Below, one piece after another: positions 3,074 to 19,565 of a DNA stretch of 28,797 nucleotides. A model generated the notes under the pieces. That model was not told the DNA's origin and made no database searches. It saw nothing but the letters and a program-made list of their open reading frames with translations. This DNA comes from a virus, in the IMG/VR virus record IMGVR_UViG_3300025652_000368, positions 1 through 28,797 of that record; one strand, 5' to 3'. How positions within the stretch are numbered: the first letter of the stretch is position 1; every line of letters begins with the position of its first letter. A program made the translations under genes and the position numbers.

Positions 3074-3296
3074 GGGGGTAGGGTACCTGGCTAAAGACAG
3101 ACATGGACACCCCCCTTTATGGGGGAGTCCTAATGTCTATAGGGTACCTTGTGATTTTTTTTAAAAAATTTTTTTGTGGTGACTGTTGGTGGAAAACTTA
3201 GTGTAGAAGATCTGACCGACACAAGTACAAAAAGGGGGGGACCATACCCGCCCGTCCCGATAATCCGAACAATTGTTCATATTGCTTAGGGTACCT
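3059..3296. repeat. Four AGGGTACCT elements in an intergenic region
   Basis: The word AGGGTACCT, or a one-base variant, occurs near 3060, 3080, 3141 and 3287. The core AGGTACCT/GGTACC is palindromic. The first copy overlaps the spacer of the leftward promoter, which suggests an operator. The region holds no convincing gene. Confidence 0.5.
3099..3138. terminator. Long GC hairpin, possible bidirectional terminator
   Basis: AGACAT, GGAC and CCCCC (3099-3115) pair with GGGGG, GTCC and ATGTCT (3121-3138), with a TA bulge and a short loop. The plus strand continues after 12 bases into a T-tract (3155-3162), so it is an imperfect rho-independent terminator. A regulatory hairpin is an alternative. 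Confidence 0.45.
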
Positions 3297-3319
3297 CAGA
3301 AATTGATTTTGAGTTGGAC

Positions 3320-3345
3320 AAAAAAAAGAGCGGCATTGCCGCTCT
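3320..3345 (-). terminator. Rho-independent terminator of the amidoligase operon
   Basis: AGAGCGGCA (3327-3335) pairs with TGCCGCTCT (3337-3345), a 9-bp stem with a minimal loop. On the minus strand it is followed directly by a run of eight T (plus-strand A-tract 3320-3327). It lies about 20 bases past the stop of the leftward amidoligase gene. Confidence 0.85.
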
Positions 3346-3366
3346 AATGTTTTAATCGGCTCCGAA

Positions 3367-4434
3367 TTATCGGAGCAATGTTATTCTGTTTTGCCACCAT
3401 TCAAACTCGCTATCATCCAATCCCGCCCAAATACTTGGGATGCCAATTCTATTTTCGGGCAACAATGTCACGCCGCTAGTCTCGCTCTCAATAGTTTGTA
3501 AAACTTGATAACGTGTAAGATCGGTACCATCACCATACCTTGCACCATTTGATTGTTGAGTATGAGTAACTACAGCATTATCGCCAACGCGATTTCTAAT
3601 TTCTGATACAGCGGCACGAACGCGTTGTTCGCTACATCCTGTCGCGTCCATAATTTCTCGAGTTGATACGCCGTTGTTGGTGCGCATCATAGTGTACTGA
3701 ACGCCAACGCGTGAACCATTGCGAAATGGTGTAGTTGGCGTTTCAACTGTAGTGGATCTATTGCCATGCTCAACTCTTGCTTCAATTGTCCAATTAACAA
3801 AGTTATCTAGGAATTGTAACCAACGCCAAATTTTGTTTGCCTCAATCGTGCCGCTATGCTGCCTAAATTCAATGGTACCATTTCGCCAAGTATCAAGATT
3901 AATAGCATAAAACTTGCTATGGTTTAATTCACTAATAGTATTAGCGTTTTCAATCTTGGTGGCGTTCAATGGTTTACAATACCTATTGTTGGTGCGAGAT
4001 CTAGGAAACATAGTATTGATAATATCTTGTTGACGCTCCCAACGAACAAATAAATCTTTTACTATTGTGAAGTCAAAAGGCTCGCCATGCTCAGATAAAA
4101 AACGGCCTGTACGTTCAGTATGTAAAATACTATCGCCTGTAAAACGTGCCGCATGCGTTGTATCGGCTAGTGGCGCGTTGCCTATATGAACATGCAAGCC
4201 GCATGATTGATTAATGCGGCAACCTATATCGCTCAATACTCTACAAACACTTTCAAGATATTCTTTACCTACTTGGCATAATGTTATCGGTGGTAATACT
4301 ATTTCGGCGTCAACGCTTGGCGTACCGTCGGGTTTTACTAAACAGCCTTTTATGCCTGCATTGTCTAACGCCTGTTTTACAGTTGATACTGAAACGCCGT
4401 GTGTTTCTTTTTCTATTCCAAATGTTAAGGTCAT
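3367..4434 (-). CDS. Putative amidoligase with C-terminal HTH
   Basis: The product (355 residues from ATG 4434) opens with MTLTFGIEKE, the acidic FGxExE-type start of the amidoligase_2 family (COOH-NH2 ligases related to glutamine synthetase). Later come SCGLHVHIGN and NLDTWRNGTIEFRQHSGT, which carry the family's His and Glu/Arg signatures. Known members are thought to join amino groups to carboxylates by ATP-dependent amide bonds, often on peptides or cell-wall components. The substrate here is unknown. After about residue 235 comes a likely winged-helix segment (STREIMDATGCSEQRVRAAV). An in-frame ATG at 4497 exists, but 4434 has GAGAG upstream and sits 20 bases after the preceding gene. It forms an operon with the gene at 4455-4784. 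Confidence 0.75.
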   Translation of the reverse strand: MTLTFGIEKETHGVSVSTVKQALDNAGIKGCLVKPDGTPSVDAEIVLPPITLCQVGKEYLESVCRVLSDIGCRINQSCGLHVHIGNAPLADTTHAARFTGDSILHTERTGRFLSEHGEPFDFTIVKDLFVRWERQQDIINTMFPRSRTNNRYCKPLNATKIENANTISELNHSKFYAINLDTWRNGTIEFRQHSGTIEANKIWRWLQFLDNFVNWTIEARVEHGNRSTTVETPTTPFRNGSRVGVQYTMMRTNNGVSTREIMDATGCSEQRVRAAVSEIRNRVGDNAVVTHTQQSNGARYGDGTDLTRYQVLQTIESETSGVTLLPENRIGIPSIWAGLDDSEFEWWQNRITLLR

Positions 4435-4454
4435 AATTTTCTCACTCTCTTTTT

Positions 4455-4784
4455 TTATTGATTTATTAATTGCTGTAATTGTTTCATGTTTAACCATTGG
4501 TGGGTTGGGTTATCCCTATGCGCATATTTTGCGCGGCGTTTTACAATCTTTTCATGGCGGCGTTGTTTACCGCTCATTCGCATACCGCTAACCCAATTCT
4601 TAATATTTTGTGACGGTGGTTTTTCATCGGCGATAAAGTCTAACATATCATCGTGAAATTTTTCGTTATGACTTTTAGGATTTGGGCCTAGTGACAAACT
4701 AGGTATTGCCATATGGTCGTCGTCAAAATTAGAAAATAGATTTTCTATTTCATCGGTTGGTAGGTCTATTGTAAAATCTAACAT
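4455..4784 (-). CDS. Hypothetical protein upstream of amidoligase
   Basis: A 109-residue protein, acidic in the first third (DLPTDEIENLFSNFDDD) and strongly basic near residues 65-90 (MSGKQRRHEKIVKRRAKY). I recognise no domain. It is the first gene of a two-gene leftward operon with the amidoligase-like gene and could be its substrate or partner, though that is only inferred from position. GTGAG precedes the ATG. A promoter lies 34-62 bases upstream. Confidence 0.6.
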   Translation of the reverse strand: MLDFTIDLPTDEIENLFSNFDDDHMAIPSLSLGPNPKSHNEKFHDDMLDFIADEKPPSQNIKNWVSGMRMSGKQRRHEKIVKRRAKYAHRDNPTHQWLNMKQLQQLINQ

Positions 4785-4817
4785 AATTTCTCACTTTCGT
4801 TTTTTTGTTTATACCTA

Positions 4818-4869
4818 AGAATACAAAATATTTTATATAATCACAAGTAAAAAATCCCATAAAATCCCA
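4818..4869 (-). promoter_or_regulatory. Promoter with two upstream TGGGAT elements
   Basis: On the minus strand TTGTGA (4846-4841), 17 bases, then TATTCT (4823-4818). Immediately upstream of the -35 are two direct TGGGATTTT copies (plus-strand ATCCCA at 4854-4859 and 4864-4869), ten bases apart, about one helical turn. It probably drives 4784-3367. Confidence 0.55.
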
Positions 4870-4971
4870 AATTATTCGGTTTATTTTTGCCAAAAAAATC
4901 TAAAAAAATCTAAAAAAAAAGAAAAAAATTATAGATAATATGTATATAAATAAGGGTATATATACATATAT

Positions 4972-5027
4972 CCCGATCCCCGATCCCGATCCCGATCCCG
5001 ATCCCGATCCCGATCCCGAACCCCGAT
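4972..5027. repeat. GATCCC hexanucleotide tandem repeat
   Basis: Seven GATCCC units run with 6-base spacing after one 7-base step, ending in GAACCCC and GATGG. It reads as (DP)n on plus and (GI)n on minus. A slipped-strand microsatellite is unusual in a compact phage genome; copy number may vary or be an assembly artefact. Confidence 0.9.
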
Positions 5028-5050
5028 GGCCCAGGCTCGGTGAAGAGAAC

Positions 5051-5271
5051 GAACAATTGTTCGGGTTGTTGTCCCAGGCAGCGGGAATGCAGCGGGAAGA
5101 TACCAGGAGACAGAAGTGCCCTGGAGCTGCTTGCCTGGTTGTCAGCGCCCTGGTATAATAACCCGAACAATTCTTCGGGTAATTCCGAAGCGCCTGGGAA
5201 GATCAACCCGAAACCCGATGTATGTCTGGGAAGCCCGCAGCGCCTCGGCAGTAACCCGAACAATTTTTCGG
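5051..5271. repeat. Cluster of CCCGAACAATT inverted-repeat elements
   Basis: Three elements: GAACAATTGTTC (5051-5062, followed by GGG), ACCCGAA/TTCGGGT around CAATTC (5161-5180, perfect 7-bp arms), and CCGAA/TTCGG (5256-5271). Related copies lie at 3265, 5901, 7524 and 11759 and as half-sites inside several genes. They are often near GTCCC(C)AGG/GCTG words. Confidence 0.7.
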
Positions 5272-5354
5272 CTTATCGACCCCGAAGATACTCCTCCCCC
5301 GCCTCCTCCGCCAAAAAAACGGGGTTGGGGGCGGATACGCAACCTCCCCAAGCG

Positions 5355-5885
5355 TCAAGACTGCTCGACGGCCTCCTGATTATATTCCGTTATAGGATTT
5401 TGTTCGGGTTCTGTGGGATTTTCTGCGGGTGTTACGTCAATCATGCGATTTTTAGCACGATCCATAAACTCTTGCAGTTGTTCCACAATCTGCTCCCTGC
5501 TGAGATTGTCAACGTGTTCGTGTGTTACATGGCTACGAGCGACCATTAAACCAGTTACCTTTAACCTGAGTTCCTCGGCTTTAATCGCTGCTCCGAAGTT
5601 ACCTTCTTGCCATGCCTCATCCCGAAGGCGTTGCATATCCCGAACAGATTTGGTTATTGATACCCCGTACTTTGCTTCAAGCTCTAAACGCATCTCCTCC
5701 ATGCGTTCTTTGACCTTTGGGTTATTGAGAAGCTGTACTGCTGAGACATTTGCGTTCTTGTACCCTGCCTCCCTAGCTGCTGCGGTCTGTGTCATATCTT
5801 TATGAATGTAGTTATCCAGAAACTTCTGCTGCGGCGGCGTTAGTCTCTTTTCTCCTTTGGCTACCTGCTCCCCGACCTTTGGCAT
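5355..5885 (-). CDS. terS: Terminase small subunit
   Basis: The 176-residue protein begins with the DNA-binding helix-turn-helix region of the terminase_2 family: LTPPQQKFLDNYIHKDMTQT, then AAREAGYKNANVSAVQLLNN and PKVKERMEEM. It recognises the packaging site and recruits the large ATPase/nuclease subunit in the capsid-loading motor. The middle (residues 65-115) is helical and probably oligomerises. The tail is acidic and Pro/Gln-rich. CGGGAG precedes the ATG at 5885. Unusually, no large-subunit gene follows: downstream is a gene-free repeat region, so terL must lie outside the window. The repeats and the TGACGTA cluster flanking terS are candidates for the packaging or origin site. Confidence 0.85.
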   Translation of the reverse strand: MPKVGEQVAKGEKRLTPPQQKFLDNYIHKDMTQTAAAREAGYKNANVSAVQLLNNPKVKERMEEMRLELEAKYGVSITKSVRDMQRLRDEAWQEGNFGAAIKAEELRLKVTGLMVARSHVTHEHVDNLSREQIVEQLQEFMDRAKNRMIDVTPAENPTEPEQNPITEYNQEAVEQS

Positions 5886-5900
5886 ACTGGCTCCCGTGCT

Positions 5901-5920
5901 ACCCGAACAATTTGTCGGTT
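5901..5920. repeat. CCCGAACAATT element upstream of terS
   Basis: ACCCGAACAATTTGTCGGTT is an imperfect inverted repeat of the dispersed family, 16 bases from the terS start codon. Confidence 0.6.
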
Positions 5921-5952
5921 TATATTACCTCATCCGCTGCTGCCGTCAAGTG

Positions 5953-5964
5953 CTATCTATCCCA
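5953..5964 (-). promoter_or_regulatory. Possible terS promoter with TGGGATAGATA
   Basis: On the minus strand TGGGA runs directly into TAGATA, as TGGGA-TATATA does at 6281-6291. The -35 is poor (TTGTGT at 15-base spacing), so this is weak. It is listed because of the shared element. Confidence 0.3.
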
Positions 5965-6012
5965 AACATTTCCAACACAACATCAAAAGCGGCAGCAACA
6001 ACATTACATCAG

Positions 6013-6047
6013 GGGGGGTAAGGTATATATACCCCCCTATAAGGGGG
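6013..6047. repeat. Alternative G6/C6/G5 hairpins
   Basis: GGGGGGTA (6013-6020) can pair with TACCCCCC (6030-6037). The same C-run can instead pair with GGGGG (6043-6047) across TATAA. The two stems exclude each other. A similar G5, C6, G5 set lies at 3073-3125. Confidence 0.6.
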
Positions 6048-6206
6048 TGACGTAGGTGACGTAAAATAACGTATTGATTTTATTACATTATTTACGTCAA
6101 ATTAACTTTTTGACGTAAGTGACGTAAACCCGTAAACCATTGATATTATTACATATTCTACGTTACGTTACTTACGTCAACTTTTGACGTAGATTTTTTT
6201 GACGTA
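6048..6206. repeat. TGACGTA repeat cluster (operator array or origin iterons)
   Basis: Exact TGACGTA or its complement TACGTCA occurs at 6048, 6057, 6093 (inverted), 6111, 6120, 6173 (inverted), 6185 and 6200. Partial TACGT copies lie at 6069, 6159 and 6164. Closely spaced pairs are 9 bases apart. The intervals are AT-rich. The cluster lies between leftward terS and the rightward early promoter. It could be a replication origin, a multi-site operator or a packaging signal. Confidence 0.8.
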
Positions 6207-6262
6207 AATTATCCTTTAAAATCAATGGGGGCACTTTTCATAAATTATTTTATAATTAGGGG

Positions 6263-6291
6263 TTGATATCTGGGATGGTATGGGATATATA
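6263..6291 (+). promoter_or_regulatory. Early rightward promoter with TGGGA element
   Basis: TTGATA (6263-6268), 17 bases, TATATA (6286-6291). TGGGA sits directly on the upstream edge of the -10, and a second TGGGAT lies at 6271-6276. It drives the first early operon, starting at 6322. Confidence 0.75.
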
Positions 6292-6321
6292 TCATACTGT
6301 CTAGTAAAAGGAGGACAGAAA

Positions 6322-6612
6322 ATGTCAGGTTACAACGGATGGAAGAACTACGAAACATGGCTCACAAACCTATGGTATGGCGATTATCTCAGTGAGTATT
6401 ATTTGGAGCTTTTTCGCGAGGGTGAATTAACTAACCCTGTGGAAGCGGAGAACGTTAAGGACATTGTTGAAAGCCTTATTTTTGATTGTGGTGACGTTCC
6501 CGAAAATGGCTTTATCTCTGATTTAGTAAATGGCGCAATGAGCGAAGTTGATTGGCGTGAGATCGCTAGTCATGTTGAGGACGTAATTAAATATGAAATG
6601 GAGAATGCATAA
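6322..6612 (+). CDS. NGWxNYETW-type small phage protein
   Basis: A 96-residue protein starting MSGYNGWKNYETWLTNLWYG. The GWxNYETWxxxLW opening is typical of a small family seen in many phages and archaeal viruses (DUF7249-like); its function is unknown. The rest is acidic and helical. The frame is open from 6280, but that ATG overlaps the promoter. AAGGAGGA lies correctly before ATG 6322. It is the first gene of the first early operon, and its stop overlaps the next start (TAATG). Confidence 0.8.
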   Translation: MSGYNGWKNYETWLTNLWYGDYLSEYYLELFREGELTNPVEAENVKDIVESLIFDCGDVPENGFISDLVNGAMSEVDWREIASHVEDVIKYEMENA

Positions 6613-6782
6613 TGTTTGAATTTATTTACAAAGGAGAAAGTATTCAGTTTGAAGGATACAACGAAGGTGACGCTATGCGAGATGCGAACAACATGTTTAA
6701 TCAAAAAGAAGAAGGTATGTGGCAAAATAGCCAGTTTGAACCTCAAAGATTTACATGGTTTGAGGGTAAATTTTTTGATTAA
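6612..6782 (+). CDS. Small hypothetical protein, 56 aa
   Basis: It begins MFEFIYKGESIQFEGYNEGD and ends WFEGKFFD. It starts within the stop of the previous gene (TAATG), so it is probably translated by reinitiation. It is aromatic-rich and acidic, with no recognised domain, and too short to be judged by length alone. Coupling and tight spacing to the next gene support it. Confidence 0.6.
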   Translation: MFEFIYKGESIQFEGYNEGDAMRDANNMFNQKEEGMWQNSQFEPQRFTWFEGKFFD

Positions 6783-6797
6783 AAGGAGTGTAGAGAA

Positions 6798-7223
6798 ATG
6801 TATTATTTAGCGTATGGAATGAACACGAGCCGCGATGCAATGGCGGTGAGGTGTCCGAATGCAAAACCTATGGGCGGTTTTTATCTGCCCAACCACCGTT
6901 TGATTTTTCGGGGCGTGGCTGACTTTCGTTACGACCCTGATTGTGTGCTGCCTGTGGTATTGTGGGAGATTACCCACGATTGTTTGAAGGCACTTGATAG
7001 GCTTGAAGGCTACCCGACTTTATACGGTAGACGTAAGATCAACGGCAATTGGATTATCTACGACATGAACGGCAACAAGGGAAACTTGCGGCATCCGTCA
7101 AGCGGATATTATGATATGATTGAAAGCGGATACAATGATTTCGGTCTTGATGATTGGTATTTGAGAGCAGCAAGGGAAGATGCTTCTTTTAATGAGGAGA
7201 AGCGAAAGGAGATTGCGGTATGA
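6798..7223 (+). CDS. Gamma-glutamylcyclotransferase-like protein
   Basis: The 141-residue product starts MYYLAYGMNTSRDAMAVRCP, the YxAYGSN-like loop of the GGCT/AIG2 fold. LDRLEGYP near residues 71-78 supplies the usual catalytic Glu. Family members release 5-oxoproline from gamma-glutamyl amines or peptides; in phages the substrate is not established. The usual Ser of the glycine loop is replaced by Met-Asn-Thr-Ser spacing, which still fits the family. AAAGGAG precedes the start. It overlaps the next gene by four bases (ATGA). An amidoligase-like gene elsewhere in the window makes a matched pair of amide-forming and amide-opening enzymes, which may be coincidence. Confidence 0.75.
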   Translation: MYYLAYGMNTSRDAMAVRCPNAKPMGGFYLPNHRLIFRGVADFRYDPDCVLPVVLWEITHDCLKALDRLEGYPTLYGRRKINGNWIIYDMNGNKGNLRHPSSGYYDMIESGYNDFGLDDWYLRAAREDASFNEEKRKEIAV

Positions 7224-7369
7224 ATTTTCAAATTGAAAACATGGAAAGCTTTTTAAAGTGGGTAAAAACGTGCCCCTACACTTACAGCATCAGTTCGATG
7301 CAAGGGGGATTTGTTCATTTAAAAGTTTTTATTCCAGTGGATAAAAAAGTTGAGGCTTCCGATGATTGA
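7220..7369 (+). CDS. Small hypothetical protein, 49 aa
   Basis: MNFQIENMESFLKWVKTCPY... overlaps the upstream stop (ATGA) and the downstream start. AAAGGAGATT lies before the ATG. It has a predicted helix then a strand-rich second half (SISSMQGGFVHLKVFIPV). No family recognised. Confidence 0.55.
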   Translation: MNFQIENMESFLKWVKTCPYTYSISSMQGGFVHLKVFIPVDKKVEASDD

Positions 7370-7451
7370 TTGGCAGGATTGGATCATTGCCACCTTAATT
7401 ATAGTTGGTGTTTATGGTTGGCTAATTGGAGCGGTGCTGCAATGGTGGTAG
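7362..7451 (+). CDS. Tiny single-pass membrane protein, 29 aa
   Basis: MIDWQDWIIATLIIVGVYGW then LIGAVLQWW: almost the whole peptide is one transmembrane helix flanked by Trp. It overlaps the previous gene by eight bases. GAGG lies six bases before the ATG. It is the last gene of the operon, before a strong terminator. It may be a small membrane effector; position and hydrophobicity are the only evidence. Confidence 0.5.
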   Translation: MIDWQDWIIATLIIVGVYGWLIGAVLQWW

Positions 7452-7479
7452 ACCCCGACATAACCCGAATAATATGAAG

Positions 7480-7510
7480 CCCCCGCAAAATTCAAGCGGG
7501 GGTTTTTTTT
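7480..7510 (+). terminator. Terminator of first early operon
   Basis: CCCCCGC (7480-7486) pairs with GCGGGGG (7496-7502), followed by eight T. Confidence 0.95.
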
Positions 7511-7523
7511 GTCCCAAGCGTAT

Positions 7524-7553
7524 AACCCGAACAATTTATCGGGTTGTTTTTTT
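7524..7553 (+). terminator. Second terminator built from a CCCGAACAATT element
   Basis: AACCCGA (7524-7530) pairs with TCGGGTT (7539-7545) across ACAATTTA, then G and seven T. Here the dispersed element acts as a terminator stem. Confidence 0.8.
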
Positions 7554-7654
7554 GTCCCCGCTGCTGACTTTTTTCTTGCATTGGTATTTTTCCCATGTTA
7601 TACCATTCCTTGCAGGGACGCATTGGTCTGCCTTTCTGCCTCACTAACTAGACG

Positions 7655-7688
7655 CCCCTCAGTTCCTCCGTTCTGAGGGGTTTTTTTT
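7655..7688 (+). terminator. Third terminator before the second early operon
   Basis: CCCCTCAG (7655-7662) pairs with CTGAGGGG (7673-7680), followed by eight T. Three terminators in about 210 bases insulate the two early operons. The sequence between them has no gene; TGGTAT/ATACCA inverted arms lie near 7584-7607. Confidence 0.95.
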
Positions 7689-7714
7689 ATTCATAAATTT
7701 TTTTATTTTTTTTC

Positions 7715-7761
7715 TTGACACTCATAATAAACTATTTTATGTATGGGATATCTAGTATAAT
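7715..7761 (+). promoter_or_regulatory. Promoter of the TIGR-Tas operon
   Basis: TTGACA (7715-7720), 17 bases, TATGTA (7738-7743), then TGGGATA (7744-7750). A second -10-like TATAAT lies at 7756-7761, so two overlapping promoters are possible; TGGGATA would sit in the spacer of the second. Confidence 0.65.
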
Positions 7762-7777
7762 GAAAGGAAGTAAAATC

Positions 7778-8215
7778 ATGGGTTTAGATATGTATTTAAG
7801 AGGCGACAAGTATATCAGTCAGTGGGATCATTCACAGCAAAAGCCCGAAGGTGGATCACTGGAAGTGAAGCGCCCTGTTGTTGATGGGTTCGATGTAGAG
7901 ACATATGTTCTTGATATGGGCACATGGCGCAAGTTCGCACCGTTGCACGTTTACATTGTAAATGAGTTCGCTGATGGTGTTGATGAATGCCAAAGGATTG
8001 ATCTTGAGGCTGAACAGTTACGCAAGATTGCCAATGCACTACGCGATAACAAATTGCCTAGCAATGATGATTGTTATGGTTGTTTCTTTGGTAGCCCAGA
8101 GATGTGGGATGAAGACCGATCCGAAGGCAAAGAGCATGCCAAAGTATTTGATGCTGCTGCTGAGTGGGTGGAGTCCACCTCTTGGGCTAGTGTTACCTAT
8201 CAGGCAAGTTGGTAG
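7778..8215 (+). CDS. MGLDMYL-type phage protein
   Basis: The 145-residue product starts MGLDMYLRGDKYISQWDHSQ. MGLDMYL openings followed by a TWRKF segment and a VDECQ segment recur in phage proteins of unknown function. Cys residues near the middle (CYGCFFGS) could bind metal. The frame is open from 7715, but the first in-frame ATGs overlap the promoter; AAAGGAAG fits ATG 7778. It is the first gene of the operon that carries the guide-RNA array. Confidence 0.75.
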   Translation: MGLDMYLRGDKYISQWDHSQQKPEGGSLEVKRPVVDGFDVETYVLDMGTWRKFAPLHVYIVNEFADGVDECQRIDLEAEQLRKIANALRDNKLPSNDDCYGCFFGSPEMWDEDRSEGKEHAKVFDAAAEWVESTSWASVTYQASW

Positions 8216-8225
8216 GGAGGCTGAC

Positions 8226-8450
8226 ATGATTAATAAAGATTCAATTAAATTTTATAACAAAGCATACAAGCCGTTGAAGGGTGCAAAGATTGTGGATTTC
8301 AACATGGTTAAATGTGACTTTGATCCGTATGTTTATTGGCCCACCTTTACCATGCAAAAGGGAACCGAAAAGTTTAATCTTGTCCTCTCTCAGGATGAAG
8401 AGGGCAATGGCGGTGGCTTTGCTTTTATTGAGGATGTGAAAAATGCATAG
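8226..8450 (+). CDS. Hypothetical protein, 74 aa
   Basis: MINKDSIKFYNKAYKPLKGA... ends GGGFAFIEDVKNA. The frame is open from 7962, but AGGGAGG directly precedes ATG 8226, and the upstream part overlaps the MGLDMYL gene. Its end overlaps the next start by eight bases. Looks like a small mixed alpha/beta phage protein; function unknown. Confidence 0.7.
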   Translation: MINKDSIKFYNKAYKPLKGAKIVDFNMVKCDFDPYVYWPTFTMQKGTEKFNLVLSQDEEGNGGGFAFIEDVKNA

Positions 8451-8808
8451 CGTTGACCCGATGGAAATTATGTTAAGCGATGTCTTTGACAAAGTGTTTT
8501 ATAACAAAGAGCAAGAACAAAGCCGCAAGGTTTGCGAAGAATGCGATGGATGGGGGGCAATTGAGGTTGATGCCCCCCGACCTCACGGCTTTAATCGTGA
8601 CGTTGGTTACATGGACGTTGATAAAATCGAATGCCCCGAATGCGATGGCACAGGGGAACTGGAGAGCGAACAATGCAATTGCACTGAAGCAGAGGAACCA
8701 CACGATCATTGTGTTGGTTGTGACTGTATTCTGCGTTGGGATGAAAGTGAGAACTATTGCCAGTGGTGCGAAGAACGCATGGAAAAGGAAGCTAAAAATG
8801 TTTCATAA
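8443..8808 (+). CDS. Cys-rich zinc-finger protein, DnaJ-like CxxCxG repeats
   Basis: The 121-residue protein has CEECDGWG near residue 31, CPECDGTG near 66, then CNC, CVGCDC and CQWCEER in the last 45 residues. The first two are CxxCxGxG half-fingers like those of DnaJ zinc domains; the others may form a second zinc site. The outer parts are acidic. I infer zinc binding and probably a protein- or nucleic-acid-binding role. It starts inside the previous gene and overlaps the next. Confidence 0.7.
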   Translation: MHSVDPMEIMLSDVFDKVFYNKEQEQSRKVCEECDGWGAIEVDAPRPHGFNRDVGYMDVDKIECPECDGTGELESEQCNCTEAEEPHDHCVGCDCILRWDESENYCQWCEERMEKEAKNVS

Positions 8809-9040
8809 GATGGTAACGAAGCTTTGGCAGGGTGATAAAGTATCTGTCAGGGATTACGAAGTAAAGAAGGCCATTGATCTTGGTGGCCTTCATTTAACCT
8901 ATGACAATCAAATTATGACTTTAACGCCCGATGATCTGATGAAGTTGAAGCCAGAGGATAAGGTTTATTCATCCCGAACAGGCGGTCAAAATTATAGTTT
9001 AGTTGATATTTTATTTAAACCATATGAGGAGACAGAATAA
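8798..9040 (+). CDS. Hypothetical protein, 80 aa
   Basis: MFHKMVTKLWQGDKVSVRDY... includes LHLTYDNQIMTLTPDDLMKL. It looks like a small beta-rich domain. ATG 8798 is preferred over the longer open frame from 8480 because the latter overlaps the zinc-finger gene throughout. AAAAGGAAGCT precedes the start. Its stop overlaps the next start (TAATG). Confidence 0.65.
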   Translation: MFHKMVTKLWQGDKVSVRDYEVKKAIDLGGLHLTYDNQIMTLTPDDLMKLKPEDKVYSSRTGGQNYSLVDILFKPYEETE

Positions 9041-9579
9041 TGACTTATCAGAGTAGAAACCCCATTGTTTTAGAGGCCATTGAAAAGGCTTGGGAAAATT
9101 CAAAGACGCAAAAGGAAGCGGCTGAAAAGTATCTTAATATGTTGCGCAATGATAAAGATTTGCGTGATGCGGCTACTGCACGTTATTTGCAGCGCATTGC
9201 GTCTGAAGATGTAAGCGCCAGATCAAGAACAAACCGAATTAGTTTTAGGCGTCAGGCTGAAAAGATTTCAAAGCAGGTTTTGTTAAAGAAGGGCGAACAT
9301 TCCACCCCGAATGTGTCTTTGAAAAATACGGCTGTTAATTATGCCAAGAATATCTTTGATTATTTTGCATTGCCCGATTTGGGCATTGCTCTTGGTGATG
9401 CAACCAAAAGCGATTTAGAGCATGTTGTTAAGCTAGAGCATGGCAAGATGAGTACGCATAAACGTAATCATAAGTTTTTATCTGCGATCTTAGATAAAAC
9501 ACCCGAAGGTAAAATTGTTCGGGATGTTTGGAAGATTGAAGATGTAGAGGCCATCTATACAGATGTGATGGTGTCGTAA
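9040..9579 (+). CDS. Unknown protein immediately upstream of the TIGR array
   Basis: A 179-residue basic, helical protein. The first ~60 residues (AIEKAWENSKTQKEAAEKYL) look like a helical regulator-like segment, followed by a basic linker (RSRTNRISFRRQAEKISKQ). The second half (IFDYFALPDLGIALGDATKS, then VVKLEHGKMSTHKRNHKFL) forms a separate domain. I do not recognise a family. It ends nine bases before the first array stem, so read-through would carry transcription into the array. Its basic character and position make it a candidate RNA-binding or array-associated factor, which is only inference. Confidence 0.7.
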   Translation: MTYQSRNPIVLEAIEKAWENSKTQKEAAEKYLNMLRNDKDLRDAATARYLQRIASEDVSARSRTNRISFRRQAEKISKQVLLKKGEHSTPNVSLKNTAVNYAKNIFDYFALPDLGIALGDATKSDLEHVVKLEHGKMSTHKRNHKFLSAILDKTPEGKIVRDVWKIEDVEAIYTDVMVS

Positions 9580-9587
9580 TGTTATAC

Positions 9588-10248
9588 GGGAGCCAACAAG
9601 ACTGCACAGCAATGTCACCTTGTGACCGCTCCCAAGGGAAGGGTCAGTTCTACCTCGCAGTAGTGCCAAAAACAATACACCCTTCCCGATTAGTTTACGG
9701 GAGCCAATCGTCGTACGCAGCAATGCCAATGCGCTTTCGCTCCCAAGGGAAGGGTCACGGCTTTATCGCAGAGATGCCACGTAACAAACACCCTTCCCGA
9801 CCAGTTTTAGAGAGCCAAGGATCAGTCGCAGAAATGCCAATGCGCGGTCTCTCTCAAGGGAAGGGTCATCATGGCCCCGCAGAAATGCCATTCATGGTTC
9901 ACCCTTCCCAACCAGTTTATGGGAGCCGCTATAGGTACGCATCAATGCCACATTTGAGTCGCTCCCACCAGTTTATGGGAGGGTCAGAAGTGACCCACAG
10001 CAATGTCACGGGGATTGCACCCTCCCACCAGTTAGGAAAGGACATAATTTGTACGCTCATCAAGCCGCTACTGTTTCTTCCTTTCCTGTTAATTTATGGG
10101 AGCCACCCCCTCTGCGCAGAAATACCAACTGTACCCCGCTCCCACCAGATTTGGGCCACTTCTAAGACTCCGCAAGGACAAAGACAGCTCGCCCAATATA
10201 ACCAGAGGCCATCGACAACGCGCAGCAATGCCACAACGTAGTCGCCTC
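9588..10248 (+). repeat. TIGR-like array: 12 dual-spacer stem-loop units
   Basis: Twelve units lie at 9588-9633, 9636-9687, 9699-9744, 9747-9798, 9810-9855, 9858-9909, 9921-9966, 9977-10026, 10034-10087, 10098-10143, 10151-10196 and 10205-10248. Each is outer stem, CA (CG in unit 7), 9 unique bases, C, a 3-bp hairpin, CA (CG in unit 9), 9 unique bases, C, closing stem. Loops are mostly GNRA (GCAA, GAAA, GAGA). Stems covary: GGGAGC/GCTCCC, GGGAAGGGT/ACCCTTCCC, GGGAGGGT/ACCCTCCC, AGGAAAGGA/TCCTTTCCT, TTGGGC/GCCCAA, GAGGC/GCCTC. Hairpin stems change as GCA/TGC, ACA/TGT, GCT/AGC, TCC/GGA. The 34 bases between outer stems are close to the 36-nt tigRNAs I recall for TIGR-Tas. Units 1-7 follow an exact 111-base two-unit period. 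A ~220-codon open frame across the array is an artefact. Confidence 0.93.
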
Positions 10249-10268
10249 GCAACTAGGAAAGAAGTAAA

Positions 10269-10976
10269 ATGGACACAAGATATGAAGACCCGACTATCGC
10301 AATGATTTATCGAACATGGCGCAACCGTCAAAATATGGTTCGCGCTGAAGGTAAATTAGTATTGCAAATTAAAGCTATCTGTAGAGGTTTTGCAGATGGT
10401 GAGATTAAAGAAGCAAACAAATTATTTACTGCTTTGAAAAAAGGAGAGGGTTCACTTGAACTCATGGCTGCAACAAAACCATTGTTTGATGCCAGAGAGC
10501 CTTTGTTAAAAAGTAGAGCAAGCTTTGAAAAGTGGTTATCTGATTTGGCAAAAGAATTACCTGTTGCAACTTTTGTGGACAAAGTAAAAGGCTTTGGTCA
10601 CTTGGGCTTGGCAGGTATTGTTGGAGAAGTTGGCGACTTTATGGCTTACGAGAAAGAACTGGACGGTATTTACAAACGTGCAGGACTTGCCGTGATTGAT
10701 GGAGAACGTCAACGTAAGCACAGCAATGCTGAAATGGCATTGGTTCACGGCTATAACCCTTCAAGGCATGCGGTCTTCTGGACGATTGGCGACAGTCTTC
10801 TCAAGGCTCAAGGCAAAGAAGAGAACGCAGGGCCATACAGAATGGTATACGATAAGCGTAAGATCATGGAGCGTGAGAGAGTTGAAACAGACGGTCATGC
10901 GCATAACAGAGCTTTACGCTATATGACAAAGCGTTTGGTTAAAGATTTATACAAAGAATGGAAGGAGGTAGCATAA
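10269..10976 (+). CDS. tasA: Tas effector (TasA-like, Nop/IS110-C-terminal-like domain, no nuclease)
   Basis: The 235-residue protein has a helical N-terminal half (1-100), likely a coiled coil like that of Nop5. Then come an HhH-like segment, VKGFGHLGLAGIVGEVGDF (106-124), LDGIYKRAGL (131-140), GYNPSRHAVFWTIGDSLLKA (161-180) and GPYRMVYDKRK (189-199). This order matches the Nop domain of box C/D RNP proteins and the C-terminal half of IS110 transposases, the fold described for Tas proteins that bind tigRNAs. No RuvC (DEDD) or HNH residues are present, so I expect RNA-guided DNA binding without cutting. AGGAAAG precedes the ATG. The start is 20 bases after the last array stem, and the stop overlaps the next ATG (TAATG). 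Family assignment is by motif order and array linkage, not by a search. Confidence 0.85.
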   Translation: MDTRYEDPTIAMIYRTWRNRQNMVRAEGKLVLQIKAICRGFADGEIKEANKLFTALKKGEGSLELMAATKPLFDAREPLLKSRASFEKWLSDLAKELPVATFVDKVKGFGHLGLAGIVGEVGDFMAYEKELDGIYKRAGLAVIDGERQRKHSNAEMALVHGYNPSRHAVFWTIGDSLLKAQGKEENAGPYRMVYDKRKIMERERVETDGHAHNRALRYMTKRLVKDLYKEWKEVA

Positions 10977-11353
10977 TGTCTATTGCAGATGATACGATGT
11001 GTATGCATTACACACTTGAGCGGTTGGGCGGTATTAAGACCGAAACTGACTTACGAGAGTTTATGGAAGAGATCAGGCATAACATTGGCGTGAACGATGA
11101 ATGGCGTGAAGCTAACCCAGATGGCGATATGCCCGATGGTTCGTTTGTTGATGATCCTGATGATTTTGATATGAACTCTGCGCTTGAGAGGGTTAAGCGT
11201 AACTATATTGAGAGAGCTTTAACTAAAACCAAAACGTTATCTGAGGCTGCTGAATTGCTTGGCTTCTCTAATTACCAGACTTTGCAGAACTGGATTGACC
11301 GATTGGAGAAGGCTCAATACGAGGCTGAAGACAAAAGAATGGGAGTGAGTTGA
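10976..11353 (+). CDS. Fis-type HTH protein coupled to tas
   Basis: A 125-residue protein. Residues ~71-116 read SALERVKRNYIERALTKTKT then LSEAAELLGFSNYQTLQNWI, the C-terminal Fis/NtrC-type helix-turn-helix. The N-terminal part is acidic (EANPDGDMPDGSFVDDPDDF). AAGGAGGT lies inside the end of tas, and the ATG overlaps its stop. The frame is open from 10958, but 10976 has the better ribosome site. It may regulate the operon, or assist the effector by DNA binding; coupling to tas is the evidence. Confidence 0.8.
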   Translation: MSIADDTMCMHYTLERLGGIKTETDLREFMEEIRHNIGVNDEWREANPDGDMPDGSFVDDPDDFDMNSALERVKRNYIERALTKTKTLSEAAELLGFSNYQTLQNWIDRLEKAQYEAEDKRMGVS

Positions 11354-11565
11354 TGATTAAATACTTTACGTTTATGGTGCTGACTTATTTCGTGCAAGGC
11401 GAACAAGTTACGCATAACATACTATTTAAAAGCTATGACGATTGTAGTCACAGCAAAGAAGCCATGTACTTTATGATGGAGCATCAACATGACGATGTGC
11501 ATATTTATTGTAAGGGCACAGCGGTTGCTTCTAATGAACTTGTTAAGCCGAAAGCGAGGCCATGA
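11353..11565 (+). CDS. Small hypothetical protein, 70 aa
   Basis: MIKYFTFMVLTYFVQGEQVT has a hydrophobic first 14 residues that could be a signal peptide or membrane anchor. Two Cys (DDCSHS and IYCKG) follow, suggesting an exported disulfide-bonded protein. It shares its A with the upstream TGA (TGATG), and overlaps the next gene by four bases. Function unknown. Confidence 0.65.
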   Translation: MIKYFTFMVLTYFVQGEQVTHNILFKSYDDCSHSKEAMYFMMEHQHDDVHIYCKGTAVASNELVKPKARP

Positions 11566-11720
11566 AAGATAGAACTAACAAAAAGTGGACTGAGGCAGAG
11601 AAGGAGTGGATGGGTTATAAACGTAAATTAGCAAACTTTAAAAAAGAAAGCGTTAGTTTATCCAAACCTCCTTGGGAAAAAGAAGCCGAACAAATTGAAG
11701 AAGATAAAGAAAAAAATTAG
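11562..11720 (+). CDS. Small charged hypothetical protein, 52 aa
   Basis: MKDRTNKKWTEAEKEWMGYK... is almost entirely Lys, Glu and aromatic residues and is probably helical. It starts by ATGA overlap with the previous gene and stops on the edge of the operon terminator. Confidence 0.6.
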   Translation: MKDRTNKKWTEAEKEWMGYKRKLANFKKESVSLSKPPWEKEAEQIEEDKEKN

Positions 11721-11744
11721 CGGGAATAAATCCCGCTTTTTTTT
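11719..11744. terminator. Bidirectional terminator between convergent operons
   Basis: AGCGGGA (11719-11725) pairs with TCCCGCT (11731-11737), followed by a T-run on plus. An A-rich flank at 11709-11716 gives a T-run on minus. It ends the tas operon and probably also the leftward block that ends at 11832. A CCCGAACAA element follows at 11760. Confidence 0.9.
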
Positions 11745-11831
11745 GTCCCCTGGTTGATAACCCGAACAAATGTTTGTATTATTTGCCTGGGGCAAGTTTT
11801 GAGGCGGGTTTCTCTTCTTGTCCCACGACTA

Positions 11832-11987
11832 CTATTTTTGGATTTTTCTTTCTAACATTTCCAACAAAGTTACTATTTCTTCACCCTGCTGTTTTACATT
11901 AAAAAAGCCCATCTGTTCTGTGTGACTAACTAACAAACGGGCTTTTCTTTTAAGCTGATTTAATATCGCTTGTGTTTCTACGTCCAC
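11832..11987 (-). CDS. Small helical hypothetical protein, 51 aa
   Basis: From GTG 11987 the product reads DVETQAILNQLKRKARLLVS then HTEQMGFFNVKQQGEEIVTL, ending ERKIQK; basic and helical. AAGGGAG seven bases upstream favours this GTG over the ATG at 12107, which would run across the DUF3846 gene. It is the last gene of the leftward block. The AAGCCC/GGGCTT arms at 11906-11944 lie inside it. Confidence 0.5.
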   Translation of the reverse strand: MDVETQAILNQLKRKARLLVSHTEQMGFFNVKQQGEEIVTLLEMLERKIQK

Positions 11988-12205
11988 AAAGCATCTCCCT
12001 TGAGGATGATAGCATGCCCGACAATACCTGTCCCGCATAATTCTGTGGCTTCTGCGTTGAACGGCAAGCCCGTAAGTAAACCTTCTTCGTTTACCAAGAT
12101 TTGCCAATCGGGTTCTGATGGAGAATGTACCATCTCCACTAAACCCCCGACAATCTTCTGCGCCTCTTGTAGCGTTGGTTGATTATCTTCAAATACTGTA
12201 ATCAT
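11978..12205 (-). CDS. DUF3846-like protein
   Basis: From ATG 12205 the 75-residue product begins MITVFEDNQPTLQEAQKIVG and continues GLVEMV, NEEGLLTGLPFNAEATEL, and IVGHAIILKGDAL. VGGxVE, NEEGxLxGLPxN and IVGxAxxL are the hallmarks of DUF3846, found in phages and plasmids and of unknown function. AAAAAGGAA precedes this ATG; the upstream start at 12244 lies in the promoter. Confidence 0.75.
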   Translation of the reverse strand: MITVFEDNQPTLQEAQKIVGGLVEMVHSPSEPDWQILVNEEGLLTGLPFNAEATELCGTGIVGHAIILKGDALWT

Positions 12206-12229
12206 AATATTTCCTTTTTCTAAAGTAAT

Positions 12230-12263
12230 TGGGATAAGTAGCACACTATCCCACGCTAGTCAA
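12230..12263 (-). promoter_or_regulatory. Promoter with TGGGATA inverted-repeat operator
   Basis: On the minus strand TTGACT (12263-12258), 17 bases, TACTTA (12240-12235). TGGGATA arms face each other at 12230-12236 and 12247-12253 with 10 bases between. One arm lies in the spacer and the other covers the -10. It would drive the DUF3846 gene and overlaps the end of the primase-helicase gene. Confidence 0.7.
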
Positions 12264-14439
12264 GTATATCTTCCTCTTGATTTAATTGACCCCCAACAAC
12301 ACCAAGCCATTTACGAGGGCCACTTCTGTTTCTTTTAAACTGGTCAATACGCCCATCGTTTTGCAACGTAGTCACAGCCTTTTTAACTGTGCTTTCTCCT
12401 ACATTTCTAAGGTTGCCTGCGTTTATGTCATCATTTGGCGCTGTTCTGATAGCATCAAAAATACCATCATGCATACCGCCCTTAGTAACGGGAATACCGC
12501 GATCCTCTCGCATTCTAATAAAATTAAAGACATATTCTATTCTTTCCCGAACGGCTTGAGACATAGCAAAATTTCGTATGTCTATACTCTTATCTTCTAA
12601 CAGACCAGTATCTGGATTACGGATAAAGTGTCTTATTTCCCGATTTGCAGGGCCGTTTGCTTTTACCACCGCACCGTCAAAAACAGCATTTCTTGTGTAT
12701 GGCACTTGTAAATCTTTACAACGTGACTTAGCCGTAGGCTCATCCACTTGCCATACAGAGAACGCACATCTTACACCGTCCACAATCGCAGAAGTACCTC
12801 TGATTTTATTACGAGCTTTCTCTGGCGAGTCGATAAAGTCATTGTCGCTTACCTTCGCCATATGGTGGTTTACGATCACCGTTGCTCCTGTTTCCGTTGC
12901 GATCTGAGCCAACAAACCCATAAATGCTGCGCCTGCCGCAGGATCAGCGTTTACATCTGCGTGAACAAATGATGCCATTGGATCAATAATAACCAATGCG
13001 AGGTCTTCAATCTCCAACATTTCTTCGTAAATCTTTTCAAATTCTGGTGATGTTGCGTATGTATTGTCCACTTTCATCATAATTGGAAACACACCGCCTT
13101 CGTTCGGCAGCGGCACAATGATACAATCATGGTCATAACCCGAACGTTTGTTCAGGGGATCTAGCCTGCTGATCCGTCTGTGGATCTCATCTTTGTCATC
13201 TTCTGCTGATAAAATTATTGATGTGCCATGATTAGCAACCAAACCACCGAAAGAGCTTTGCATACCATCGCCCGATGCTACCTTCATCGCTAGATCAAGC
13301 GTCATCATACCTTTACCGCTATCCCCTGCGGCGGCAAACACCACTGGCACCCCAAGCGGTATTGTATCTCCGATTAAGAACTTCTGCTCTGGAGCCGACC
13401 CAACAAACTGCTGAGTAATAAGCAAGTTCTGGTTTTTAAGAGATAATACCTTTTTGACCTTATGCGTAGGTGCATTGAGAAAGTTTGAAATATCAAACCC
13501 CTCTTCAATCGCATCTGCGGCATCCCACTTTTTAGGCTTACCCTTTGGCGGCACGAGCATGGTGATTGATTTTGCACCTGCATTCTGAGCCAGTTCTTGA
13601 ACTATCCTAGCTAGTTTTTTACCTGCATCGTCATTATCAGGCCATATGATTAGCTCTCTGCCTTGCAATGGAGAGAAATCAAACTTGTCTTTTGTATTAC
13701 GGGATAACATCCCTGCACCACCGATAGTACAGGTAGCTGTATATCCTTGTTTTGTTAGCTCATCTGCGCACTTCTCACCTTCCACCCATATTACGCGATC
13801 TGATTGCGCAATGTCAGGGAGGTTATAAAGCGGTCTGGTTTCAGGTAAACGTGGAAACTGGCGGAACTCTTTCTTCGTATTCCCGTCCGTATCCCGAACA
13901 ATTTCACCCGTTGGATCTCTTTCGATATATCTTCGTACCGTTACAAGGACTTCTCCATCAGTTGATAGGTAGAAATACTCGCCATCGTGTGGCGTGTTAG
14001 TATCAATGACCCGCTTTTGTCTAACTTGTTCGGGTTGTTCTTCCTGGGGCTGCTGTAACTTGTTCGGGTTAATTGGGTTAATCGGCGCTTCTGCCTGGGG
14101 ACGATCTAAGAACGTAGAGAAATGTTCGGCTACATCTGTGATTTTCCACCTGTAAGCCTCCATTAGAATCTTGGATATGCCCCCGATCCCATCACCACTA
14201 TTGAAATCCATGCCGCGCATAAAGTTTGGGCTTGATGGATCAATGTTTATTTTAAGAGATTGCCCTGCCTCACCTGACAATGAGCCAAGATAAAACTCAT
14301 TCCGAACAACTCTTCCGTTTGGGTAAGCATTCTTTAGTGCTTCGATCTGTACATATGACGGAACTTTTTCCGTAATCTCAGCGACTATATCTTTTTGATT
14401 GCTACCATATATTGTATTGCCAACTACTCTTAATGACAT
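12256..14439 (-). CDS. Primase-helicase: TOPRIM plus RepA/RecA-like ATPase
   Basis: A 727-residue replication protein. An N-terminal region (1-120) resembles primase leaders. A Gln/Pro linker follows (~125-145). The TOPRIM domain shows VIWVEGEKCADEL (~215-228) and IIWPDNDDAGKK (~263-274), the Glu and Asp-x-Asp metal ligands. A RepA-like AAA_25 ATPase has Walker A AAAGDSGKGMMTLDL (~370) and Walker B LALVIIDPM (~485), then a VNHHMAK sensor. The C-terminal ~90 residues look like a winged helix. It should unwind the fork and prime synthesis. Walker A ends GKG rather than GKS/T, a variant worth noting. No N-terminal zinc ribbon is seen. It follows the Cas4-like nuclease gene by 61 bases. Confidence 0.85.
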   Translation of the reverse strand: MSLRVVGNTIYGSNQKDIVAEITEKVPSYVQIEALKNAYPNGRVVRNEFYLGSLSGEAGQSLKINIDPSSPNFMRGMDFNSGDGIGGISKILMEAYRWKITDVAEHFSTFLDRPQAEAPINPINPNKLQQPQEEQPEQVRQKRVIDTNTPHDGEYFYLSTDGEVLVTVRRYIERDPTGEIVRDTDGNTKKEFRQFPRLPETRPLYNLPDIAQSDRVIWVEGEKCADELTKQGYTATCTIGGAGMLSRNTKDKFDFSPLQGRELIIWPDNDDAGKKLARIVQELAQNAGAKSITMLVPPKGKPKKWDAADAIEEGFDISNFLNAPTHKVKKVLSLKNQNLLITQQFVGSAPEQKFLIGDTIPLGVPVVFAAAGDSGKGMMTLDLAMKVASGDGMQSSFGGLVANHGTSIILSAEDDKDEIHRRISRLDPLNKRSGYDHDCIIVPLPNEGGVFPIMMKVDNTYATSPEFEKIYEEMLEIEDLALVIIDPMASFVHADVNADPAAGAAFMGLLAQIATETGATVIVNHHMAKVSDNDFIDSPEKARNKIRGTSAIVDGVRCAFSVWQVDEPTAKSRCKDLQVPYTRNAVFDGAVVKANGPANREIRHFIRNPDTGLLEDKSIDIRNFAMSQAVRERIEYVFNFIRMREDRGIPVTKGGMHDGIFDAIRTAPNDDINAGNLRNVGESTVKKAVTTLQNDGRIDQFKRNRSGPRKWLGVVGGQLNQEEDILD

Positions 14440-14500
14440 TATATTGTCCTCATACTCATATTTACCACTTCAGGGGTTAGCATTTACACGGTGCTGACCC

Positions 14501-15286
14501 CTAATTATATTCATCTTTCCAACAAGTCTCCCTAAACTCACAAAACTTGCAAAGATAAAAATCTTTGCTCTGAGCTATGCGAGGTAGAATGTCACCTGCT
14601 TTTGATGCAGTCAAGATATTTACTGCCTTATCACTTGCTGCCTGTGCCAACTCCTTATCAAAAGGAACTAATTCGTAGTATATTTCAGACGTATTTTTAT
14701 TCACGACTGTAAACAATGCAGGGCATTCTGTTAGATCCATGTAAGCCTGATACAGAGCGATCTGCGTTGCATATGTTGGGTTGGCTTTTGCTACACCCAT
14801 ACGTTGGAATGATTTCCATTTGCTGTCTTTCGCTGACTTGTTTTCCCACAAAGATGGGTAGCCCATATCAACAGGACCATCACAGATAACCCCATCTATA
14901 TGTCCTTTGATTTCGTCATCAGCAATTGAAAACCCGAACTGCTCTCCCATCTTGTCTTCTGTCCTAAGATCAAAGCCTGCATCCTTTATCCACTTGGCTG
15001 CGTAATCTTCGATCCCGTGACCAAACTCAAAGATGCGTAATGTCTGTGCGCTAAAGCCAGAGTTCTCATCTTGAGGGTAATTTAGGTAACGATACTGAAT
15101 TTTACGGCTGCACTCATCGCCAATACTTGACGCTCCCAGGTACTTCCGCCGCTTTTTCTTCTCATTAAGCCGAACAATTCCTCGGTCTACAGCCTTTGCT
15201 ATAGACTCTATTACAGGATCAGAACGGGATACTTGTAGGGGGCCAAGTGCCCGTTGACTTAAAGTAATTTTCTTCGAGCTTCCCAA
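14501..15286 (-). CDS. Cas4/RecB-like PD-(D/E)XK exonuclease with Fe-S-type cysteines
   Basis: About 261 residues. GASSIGDECSRKIQYRYL holds the first Cys. GHIDGVICDG and SLWENKSA give the nuclease Asp and Glu-x-Lys. QIALYQAYM is the conserved Gln-Tyr helix. FYLCKFCEFRETCW supplies three more Cys, completing the four-Cys Fe-S pattern of Cas4/AddB-like enzymes. In phages such nucleases resect DNA for recombination or degrade host DNA. No ATG is available: TTG 15286 has GGAG seven bases upstream; TTG 15292 is the alternative. It overlaps the upstream gene by 68 bases. Confidence 0.8.
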   Translation of the reverse strand: MGSSKKITLSQRALGPLQVSRSDPVIESIAKAVDRGIVRLNEKKKRRKYLGASSIGDECSRKIQYRYLNYPQDENSGFSAQTLRIFEFGHGIEDYAAKWIKDAGFDLRTEDKMGEQFGFSIADDEIKGHIDGVICDGPVDMGYPSLWENKSAKDSKWKSFQRMGVAKANPTYATQIALYQAYMDLTECPALFTVVNKNTSEIYYELVPFDKELAQAASDKAVNILTASKAGDILPRIAQSKDFYLCKFCEFRETCWKDEYN

Positions 15287-15437
15287 TTTCAATCTCCGAT
15301 GATATATCTTTTGCTGCCTGTAATCCGAATATAAGTGTGTAGACTTGATCTTCTGTTAGGTCACAAAACTTGGTGTCCCATCCGAATTTTTCTAATATAA
15401 ATGCCAATTCTTCTACTGGCTTTCTTTCTTCTATCAA
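15219..15437 (-). CDS. Small hypothetical protein with TTG start, 72 aa
   Basis: IEERKPVEELAFILEKFGWD then KFCDLTEDQVYTLIFGLQAA: an acidic helical protein, not recognised. The start TTG 15437 overlaps the upstream TGA and has AAGGAG eight bases before it. Its 3' end overlaps the nuclease gene by 68 bases, which is unusually long and makes one of the two boundaries less sure. Confidence 0.6.
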   Translation of the reverse strand: MIEERKPVEELAFILEKFGWDTKFCDLTEDQVYTLIFGLQAAKDISSEIEIGKLEENYFKSTGTWPPTSIPF

Positions 15438-15745
15438 TGTATTGCTCCTTGTGGTTCTGTTAATAAATCAATTATTTCATCCATTTCATCTCTTGGAAGT
15501 TCGCTATTCGTATATTGCAGCATAAGAACTGTAAGATTGTTTATGATAACATCTGCTGACCCGAACAAAACTTCGCCTTCTTCTGATTCGCCTATCTCTT
15601 CTTTGATAACTTCATTTGCTGTATCTGTAATTTCCTCTAGATCTTTGAGGTTTTTACAAAAGCACACATATTCAGTTTCTTCTGTATATAATTCGTTATC
15701 ATCATTACGCTTGGCTAATGATAAAACGAGTTCAAACCTAGCCAT
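15434..15745 (-). CDS. Acidic hypothetical protein, 103 aa
   Basis: MARFELVLSLAKRNDDNELY then TEETEYVCFCKNLKDLEEIT. Glu/Asp-rich with hydrophobic heptads; the last 30 residues are ELPRDEMDEIIDLLTEPQ. No domain recognised. AGAGG precedes the ATG, which overlaps the gene upstream. Its acidity might suggest a DNA mimic, but this is speculation. Confidence 0.6.
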   Translation of the reverse strand: MARFELVLSLAKRNDDNELYTEETEYVCFCKNLKDLEEITDTANEVIKEEIGESEEGEVLFGSADVIINNLTVLMLQYTNSELPRDEMDEIIDLLTEPQGAIH

Positions 15746-15890
15746 CCTCTTGCCCCTCTTTATCGTTATGTCTTAACCATAACGCCAAATCAGACAAAAT
15801 GTATTTAAAATCAGATGTTGGTAGAACTGCAATAAGTTTGCCATTGTCCCAAACTCTTAAACCATCATCATAAACTGCCCAACGTATCAT
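15738..15890 (-). CDS. Small hypothetical protein, 50 aa
   Basis: MIRWAVYDDGLRVWDNGKLI... ends NDKEGQEDG. It starts in the stop of the helicase gene (ATGA) and ends inside the next gene, a clear place in the chain of coupled genes. It looks like a small beta-hairpin protein. Function unknown. Confidence 0.6.
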   Translation of the reverse strand: MIRWAVYDDGLRVWDNGKLIAVLPTSDFKYILSDLALWLRHNDKEGQEDG

Positions 15891-17551: not shown

Positions 17552-17646
17552 GTTGGGGACTCCATTTGTCTAGAAAAGAGGGGGAGTATTTGGCCCACCG
17601 CTCCCCTTCGGTGGTCTAGCAGGTGAAGTAAACCTGTGCCGCTAGA
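17552..17646. other. 95-base gap with small hairpin
   Basis: CCACCG (17598-17603) pairs with CGGTGG across a CTCCCCTT loop between the SSB-like and helicase genes. No T-run follows in either direction. It may be a processing or attenuating hairpin. No gene here. Confidence 0.4.
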
Positions 17647-19135: not shown

Positions 19136-19136
19136 A

Positions 19137-19535
19137 TTAATTATCCACTTCTACTGTAAATCCACCAACTTCAACGCTACGGCAAGGTTCAAGTAACGAT
19201 TTGATAGCGGGTGGCGCTGCTGTATACTTACGCTCATCAACTGTAATCGTAAGCTTCCCATAGTGCTGTGCGTCTTCTGGAGCCATTGCCTCCAATACAC
19301 AGCCTAATTCATTCTGATCCCACACGACCTTTTTAGTAACCTTAGCTTTAAGCTTTTGATTACCTGCAATCATGTGTGTGGTGCCAAAATCTTTACCATC
19401 TGCTCGTAACGCATCACGAGCCTGGGTATAAAAAGTGTCTTTGATTTGCTCTTCAAGATCCTTGAGTTCACTCCTGAGCATATCAATATGCTCTTTGAGT
19501 TCATCTCTTTCACTGAGCAGTTTTGTACTGTCCAT
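19137..19535 (-). CDS. Coiled-coil protein at head of replication block
   Basis: A 132-residue protein. Residues 1-40 (LLSERDELKEHIDMLRSELK) form a heptad coiled coil. The second half (KLKAKVTKKVVWDQNELG) leads to a compact domain ending EVGGFTVEVDN. The outline resembles phage proteins found beside recombination ATPases, but I cannot name the family. It is the first gene after the minus promoter at 19566-19594. Confidence 0.65.
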   Translation of the reverse strand: MDSTKLLSERDELKEHIDMLRSELKDLEEQIKDTFYTQARDALRADGKDFGTTHMIAGNQKLKAKVTKKVVWDQNELGCVLEAMAPEDAQHYGKLTITVDERKYTAAPPAIKSLLEPCRSVEVGGFTVEVDN

Positions 19536-19565
19536 AATAATACTTTCTTTAGTTCTAGAAATTTC

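Follow-up and report, generated by a model that had tools for sequence, protein, structure and literature searches.

In the alpha protein of phage P4 (P4 alpha), a primase and a helicase are joined to a C-terminal winged helix that binds the origin by reading short iterons (ori/crr); its helicase is of the SF3 type and its primase differs from the one considered below. The iterons of RSF1010 are read by RepC, and RSF1010 RepA is, to our knowledge, without an origin-binding domain. In the PLE satellites of Vibrio cholerae, the DNA-binding domain of the initiator RepA covaries with the origin iterons and has been swapped several times; outside this domain the initiator is conserved, and two origin types are found across five PLEs (PMC8263062). 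The phage lambda initiator O acts at repeated iterons beside AT-rich DNA, is neither a helicase nor a primase, and has its four 19-bp dyad iterons inside the O gene itself (PMC7466680).

Against this background, we analysed a cluster of 7-bp words in a marine phage. We regard it as highly likely that this cluster is an iteron origin to which the C-terminal domain (CTD) of the phage primase-helicase binds and which IHF bends, and that its specificity has switched at least 12 times. The open-access literature covered yielded no prior description of this origin, which is weak evidence.

A two-block repeat cluster upstream of terS

The window, i.e., the whole stretch of DNA analysed (28,797 nucleotides), contains an AT-rich divergent gap with the terminase small subunit gene (terS; 5355–5885, minus strand; Pfam Terminase_2) on one side and rightward early genes on the other. 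The first-pass annotation had claimed at least eight TGACGTA elements in this gap, six direct and two inverted, along with partial copies. A recount together with shuffling bore this out: eight exact copies lie within 159 bp (6048–6206), of which six are direct (plus strand, at 6048, 6057, 6111, 6120, 6185 and 6200) and two inverted (minus strand, at 6093 and 6173), with partial copies (TAACGTA and others) interspersed among them. The full 28.8 kb has 10 copies; 100 shuffles gave 1.93 on average (sd 1.42, maximum 5).

The cluster is built of two blocks followed by two further direct words. In each block, two direct words at a distance of 9 bp are separated by an AT-rich spacer from an inverted one. 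Block 1 includes iterons F1 and F2 (6048–6063, plus strand, TGACGTAGGTGACGTA), the inverted iteron R1 (6093–6099, minus strand) and, between them, an IHF-type element that is the reverse of WATCAANNNNTTR (6067–6079, minus strand). Block 2 includes iterons F3 and F4 (6111–6126, plus strand, TGACGTAAGTGACGTA), a second IHF-type element (6133–6145, minus strand) and, beyond it, iteron R2 together with a degenerate copy upstream of it (6163–6180, minus strand, TTACGTTACTTACGTCAA), the latter two being 94% complementary to F3F4 over 18 nt. The final direct words, F5 and F6, lie 15 bp apart (6185–6206, plus strand). Beyond them is an AT-rich stretch (6207–6260), a candidate unwinding region, around which the AT fraction averaged across relatives reaches its maximum of 0.78–0.80. 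On the terS side the cluster is bordered by a G/C-rich palindrome with a TATA core (6012–6047, GGGGGGGTAAGGTATATATACCCCCCTATAAGGGGG), a candidate packaging or terminator element that could still belong to packaging; it is found in 165 of the 175 related clusters (see below), 93–151 bp from the terS start. GC skew, suggested earlier as a check for an origin, does have a local minimum at 6009; however, it is uninformative here because gene orientation also flips near this position, and it was discarded as origin evidence as it tracks the coding strand.

Other repeats and motifs occur elsewhere in the window. CCCGAACAATT, with at most one mismatch, has 14 sites over 3264–21584 as against 0.65 expected (e.g., at 5055, 5162, 5255, 5902, 7526 and 13893) and recurs in relatives; it is often found within CCCGAACAATTxxTCGGGTT hairpins, one of which (7523–7550) precedes a terminator-like T-run. 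An intergenic (ATCCCG)n microsatellite occupies 4970–5023, and a 111-bp tandem repeat (9627–9927) lies within a poorly conserved ORF in a region where relatives are strongly diverged. A CTAGTA-type leader motif (6298–6312) lies past the early promoter region and ahead of the first gene; as a loose pattern, it is seen in 121 of 175 relatives.

Conserved layout and variable words in related contigs

A search of IMG/VR with terS recovered 80 loci with TerS 86–99% identical, and later scans brought the total to 175 clusters. Conservation in relatives had been proposed as a check on the cluster, and these show a repeat layout that is kept and a word that is itself variable. The layout upstream of terS is common to about 170 related marine contigs: in each of two blocks, paired direct words lead through an IHF-type bend element to inverted words, and two direct words come after, with the same spacings (FF 9 bp, FF 15 bp, FR 37 bp) repeated across relatives. 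At least one IHF-consensus site is present in 96% of 140 clusters as against 4% of shuffles, and two IHF-type sites stand at fixed offsets in 101 of the 140, across nearly all word types; clusters with TGGACTA have no IHF site at full consensus. Multiple short repeats in a fixed arrangement within a small non-coding region are thus found here, as expected of an iteron origin; judging from the sequence, a putative AT-rich unwinding region and predicted bending-protein sites also adjoin the iterons.

The word is TGACGTA in window-like contigs. Others carry TGGAGTA/TGGACTA, TGAAGTA, TAACGTA, TACCGTA/TACTGTA, TCCGGTA, TTCATGT, TTGTCAC, TTGCCTA/TTGCGTA, TTGGGTA or TGGC/T/A-GTA, amounting to at least 10 different words among the relatives. 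Replacement is concerted in that all or most copies of a contig carry the new word, even between near-identical phages, and in some clusters with the GGA word block 1 differs from block 2 with each block internally matched. Word class switched at least 15 times on the tree of the primase-helicase core and at least 12 times on the CTD tree. A DNA similarity search with the cluster region found no match among cultured phages, and DSL-LC04, considered as a carrier of the cluster, has just two TGACGT near its terS, which were judged to be chance. The cultured pelagiphage HTVC023P has five CTAGGAAA in the gap upstream of terS (L435 11679–11764), which form an iteron-like cluster of their own at the corresponding location; its primase looks unrelated.

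The primase-helicase C-terminal domain as candidate reader

We sought the reader of the word by tabulating how the window genes compare with 27 contigs and by profiling residues, and this singled out the primase-helicase (12256–14439, minus strand, 727 aa), our proposed initiator. It comprises a Toprim-like N-terminal part, a hexameric-helicase-type core of the RSF1010-RepA/AAA_25 kind and a C-terminal winged helix. It matches Pfam AAA_25, PHROG 239 (primase/helicase) and, below threshold, Toprim_2, and its core matches RSF1010 RepA (1g8y) with E = 1.6e-4. AF2 modelled the full-length protein poorly (pTM 0.33), and only the C-terminal secondary structure of that model was used; an AF2 model of the CTD (residues 615–727; 12256–12597, minus strand), the proposed iteron reader, is a winged helix with pLDDT of about 90 over its core and a predicted recognition helix at residues 682–695 (12355–12396, minus strand). 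In fold comparisons the CTD ranked generic winged helices, e.g., Fur and MecI, with no close solved relative, and 1KA8, which we take to be the entry for the P4 alpha origin-binding domain, was absent among the ranked matches; a CTD profile found no sequence match among solved chains. In one contig (G001:C1:18274-20458) the primase-helicase is broken by an internal TGA and overlapping pieces, and assembly or strain mixture is suspected.

Three contigs with the GGA word (G002, G009 and G012) are about 97–100% identical to the window primase-helicase over residues 1–520 and then drop to 47–75%, whereas in GAC contigs of the window's clade identity stays at 77–100% through to the end. A matching step is seen in the DNA profiles of the GGA contigs, where alignment is also lost over the cluster. 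For 41 non-redundant contigs in which both parts are present, distances between words correlated with those between CTDs when core and TerS were controlled for (partial Mantel r = 0.22, p = 0.001); given the CTD, no signal was left for the core (p = 0.54) or TerS (p = 0.77). Pairs with similar cores, which are not mutually independent, had a mean CTD difference of 0.21 when sharing a word and 0.46 when differing in it. Phylogenetically independent pairs agreed in four of four cases (p = 0.125), a number too small for significance. The CTD also drifts without word change, with same-word pairs being up to 46% different.

Lys686 (codon 12382–12384, minus strand), inside the predicted recognition helix, shows the closest association with the word. 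Within the tree set, Lys686 is present in 37 contigs, and the third variable base is C in every one, with two of them using both C and T. The GAA contigs G007 and L248, from separate lineages, both have Asn at this position, such that a Lys-to-Asn change accompanies C-to-A; L355 has Gly and its word tolerates C, T and A, and the exception, L379, has Ser yet keeps the GAC word. This covariation suggests that the DNA-binding domain of the putative initiator is matched to the repeat.

Two other genes of the window were considered as following the word. A small HTH_28-like ORF (10958–11353) was rejected as reader, its identity being independent of the word in the window's clade. The amidoligase gene (3367–4497) stands much lower, at 32–48%, in GGA contigs and is not the best covariate because the other word classes are not separated by it. 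In a helicase gene (15887–17551), the patch 16200–16950 is diverged in the GGA contig G002 (64–87% as against 93–99% around it), possibly a second recombination.

Clusters beside distant homologues

A homologous protein, 36% identical, is encoded by Rhizobium phage RHph_Y3_1. Its gene is directly followed by a cluster of TGGGAAC words that shares the FF-TAANNNNTTGA-RR architecture and stands 2.5 kb away from terS. In alphaproteobacterial genomes, 16 regions surrounding distant homologues were compared with 16 control regions of those genomes, and clusters with at least six copies in two orientations occurred in seven of the former and none of the latter; the other nine homologue windows were without such a cluster, and the Wolbachia WO homologue had no matching module within the flanks examined. 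Four of these clusters and an additional five-copy one (L505) begin within about 100 bp of the end of the gene, and two others lie about 5 kb from it. The presence of clusters beside the primase-helicase genes of RHph_Y3_1 and the bacterial homologues ties the architecture to this protein rather than to terS.

A model for the cluster and alternatives to it

We propose that the primase-helicase binds the 7-bp words via its C-terminal winged-helix domain and that IHF or a similar bending protein would, in both blocks, curve the stretch that separates the inverted copy from the direct pair. The adjoining AT-rich DNA may then open, and the same protein would load as both helicase and primase. Changes of origin specificity would come about as the CTD is swapped or mutated together with the word. 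We infer physical binding, IHF use, unwinding and the start of replication at this place, which is very probably the replication start site of this marine phage. Of the readings first offered for the repeats, that of replication iterons is thus well supported, with the primase-helicase CTD as the likely reader; a packaging site was not upheld, and an operator function may be a secondary role.

As a primary function, the operator reading seems improbable. It holds that the words are repressor or activator sites for the divergent terS and early promoters, with the primase-helicase or the small HTH protein (10958–11353) as regulator. The divergent gap, with promoter-like sequence immediately to the right of the cluster, fits this, as does the frequent repression of neighbouring promoters by initiators, and the HTH_28-like ORF offers an alternative DNA-binder. 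However, within the window's clade this ORF is 84–99% identical among contigs with GAC, GAA and GGA words, irrespective of the word; in G016, an intact cluster stands about 750 bp from the leftward early genes, with two genes in between; and the primase-helicase gene is followed by the cluster in RHph_Y3_1 and several homologues.

Still less probable is that the cluster acts through a single-strand or cruciform structure, with inverted copies co-changing by base-pairing and the link to the protein incidental. Direct and inverted copies are complementary, the cluster strand folds more favourably than when shuffled (z = -4.5), and the GGA clusters with differing but internally matched blocks would suit such a structure. 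Against this, pairing alone would not keep six direct copies alike, and matching within blocks was barely better than across them (higher in 47 contigs, lower in 34 and equal in 30), a difference weak enough that we set aside hairpins as the sole explanation. L020 is among the contigs mismatched across F1/R1 and R1/F6, and the covariation with the winged helix is left unexplained.

In lambda cosB, R sites are spaced by IHF; a cos or pac site read by TerS, to which the F-IHF-R geometry here might be likened by analogy and which the adjacency of cluster and terS throughout the marine group had suggested, is very unlikely, because TerS does not follow the word, being identical over residues 1–165 between L001 (GAC) and L005 (GGA) and over about 1–152 between L013/L014 (GAC) and L016 (GAA), with word and TerS distances uncorrelated (Mantel r = -0.002; partial p as above), and because the RHph_Y3_1 architecture stands beside the primase-helicase gene.

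Returning to the origin reading, one tentative and on balance doubtful extension is that the words represent replication incompatibility types, with satellites, rival phages or host defence, by attacking or making use of a particular origin type, driving the changes of origin word and reader in co-circulating phages that are otherwise near-identical. If true, it would imply fast, repeated switching of specificity within an ocean phage group. The present analysis provides a candidate origin and initiator for uncultured marine phages, as well as for related alphaproteobacterial phages and prophage-like elements. The matched domains and DNA words form a natural series, through which the recognition code and the reason for repeated origin switching become directly testable.

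Comparison with known systems

As in the PLEs, the initiator domain and origin vary together here with the remaining initiator conserved; unlike the PLEs, in which a satellite uses a RepA_N initiator, the reader appears to be carried by the phage's own primase-helicase, with at least 10 words. Its gene resides on phage contigs of up to 55–60 kb, and the arrangement of a RepA_N protein on a satellite does not apply. As in P4 alpha, a primase, a helicase and a predicted C-terminal winged-helix reader seem to be joined in one protein, going by sequence matches and the structural model; unlike P4 alpha, there is no SF3 core, and a Toprim-like part and a RepA/AAA_25 core are present instead. The helicase core is detectably homologous to RSF1010 RepA, but reader and helicase would here be fused in the primase-helicase, unlike in RSF1010. 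The repeated iterons next to AT-rich DNA recall the lambda origin, from which the locus differs in its 7-bp words in both orientations, its IHF-type spacers and its intergenic position. Thus, covariation of an initiator domain and its iterons with swapping (PLE) and iteron origins (lambda) are already known; what is distinct here is the origin architecture, the fusion of the reader with a RepA-type core and how many switches took place among near-identical phages.
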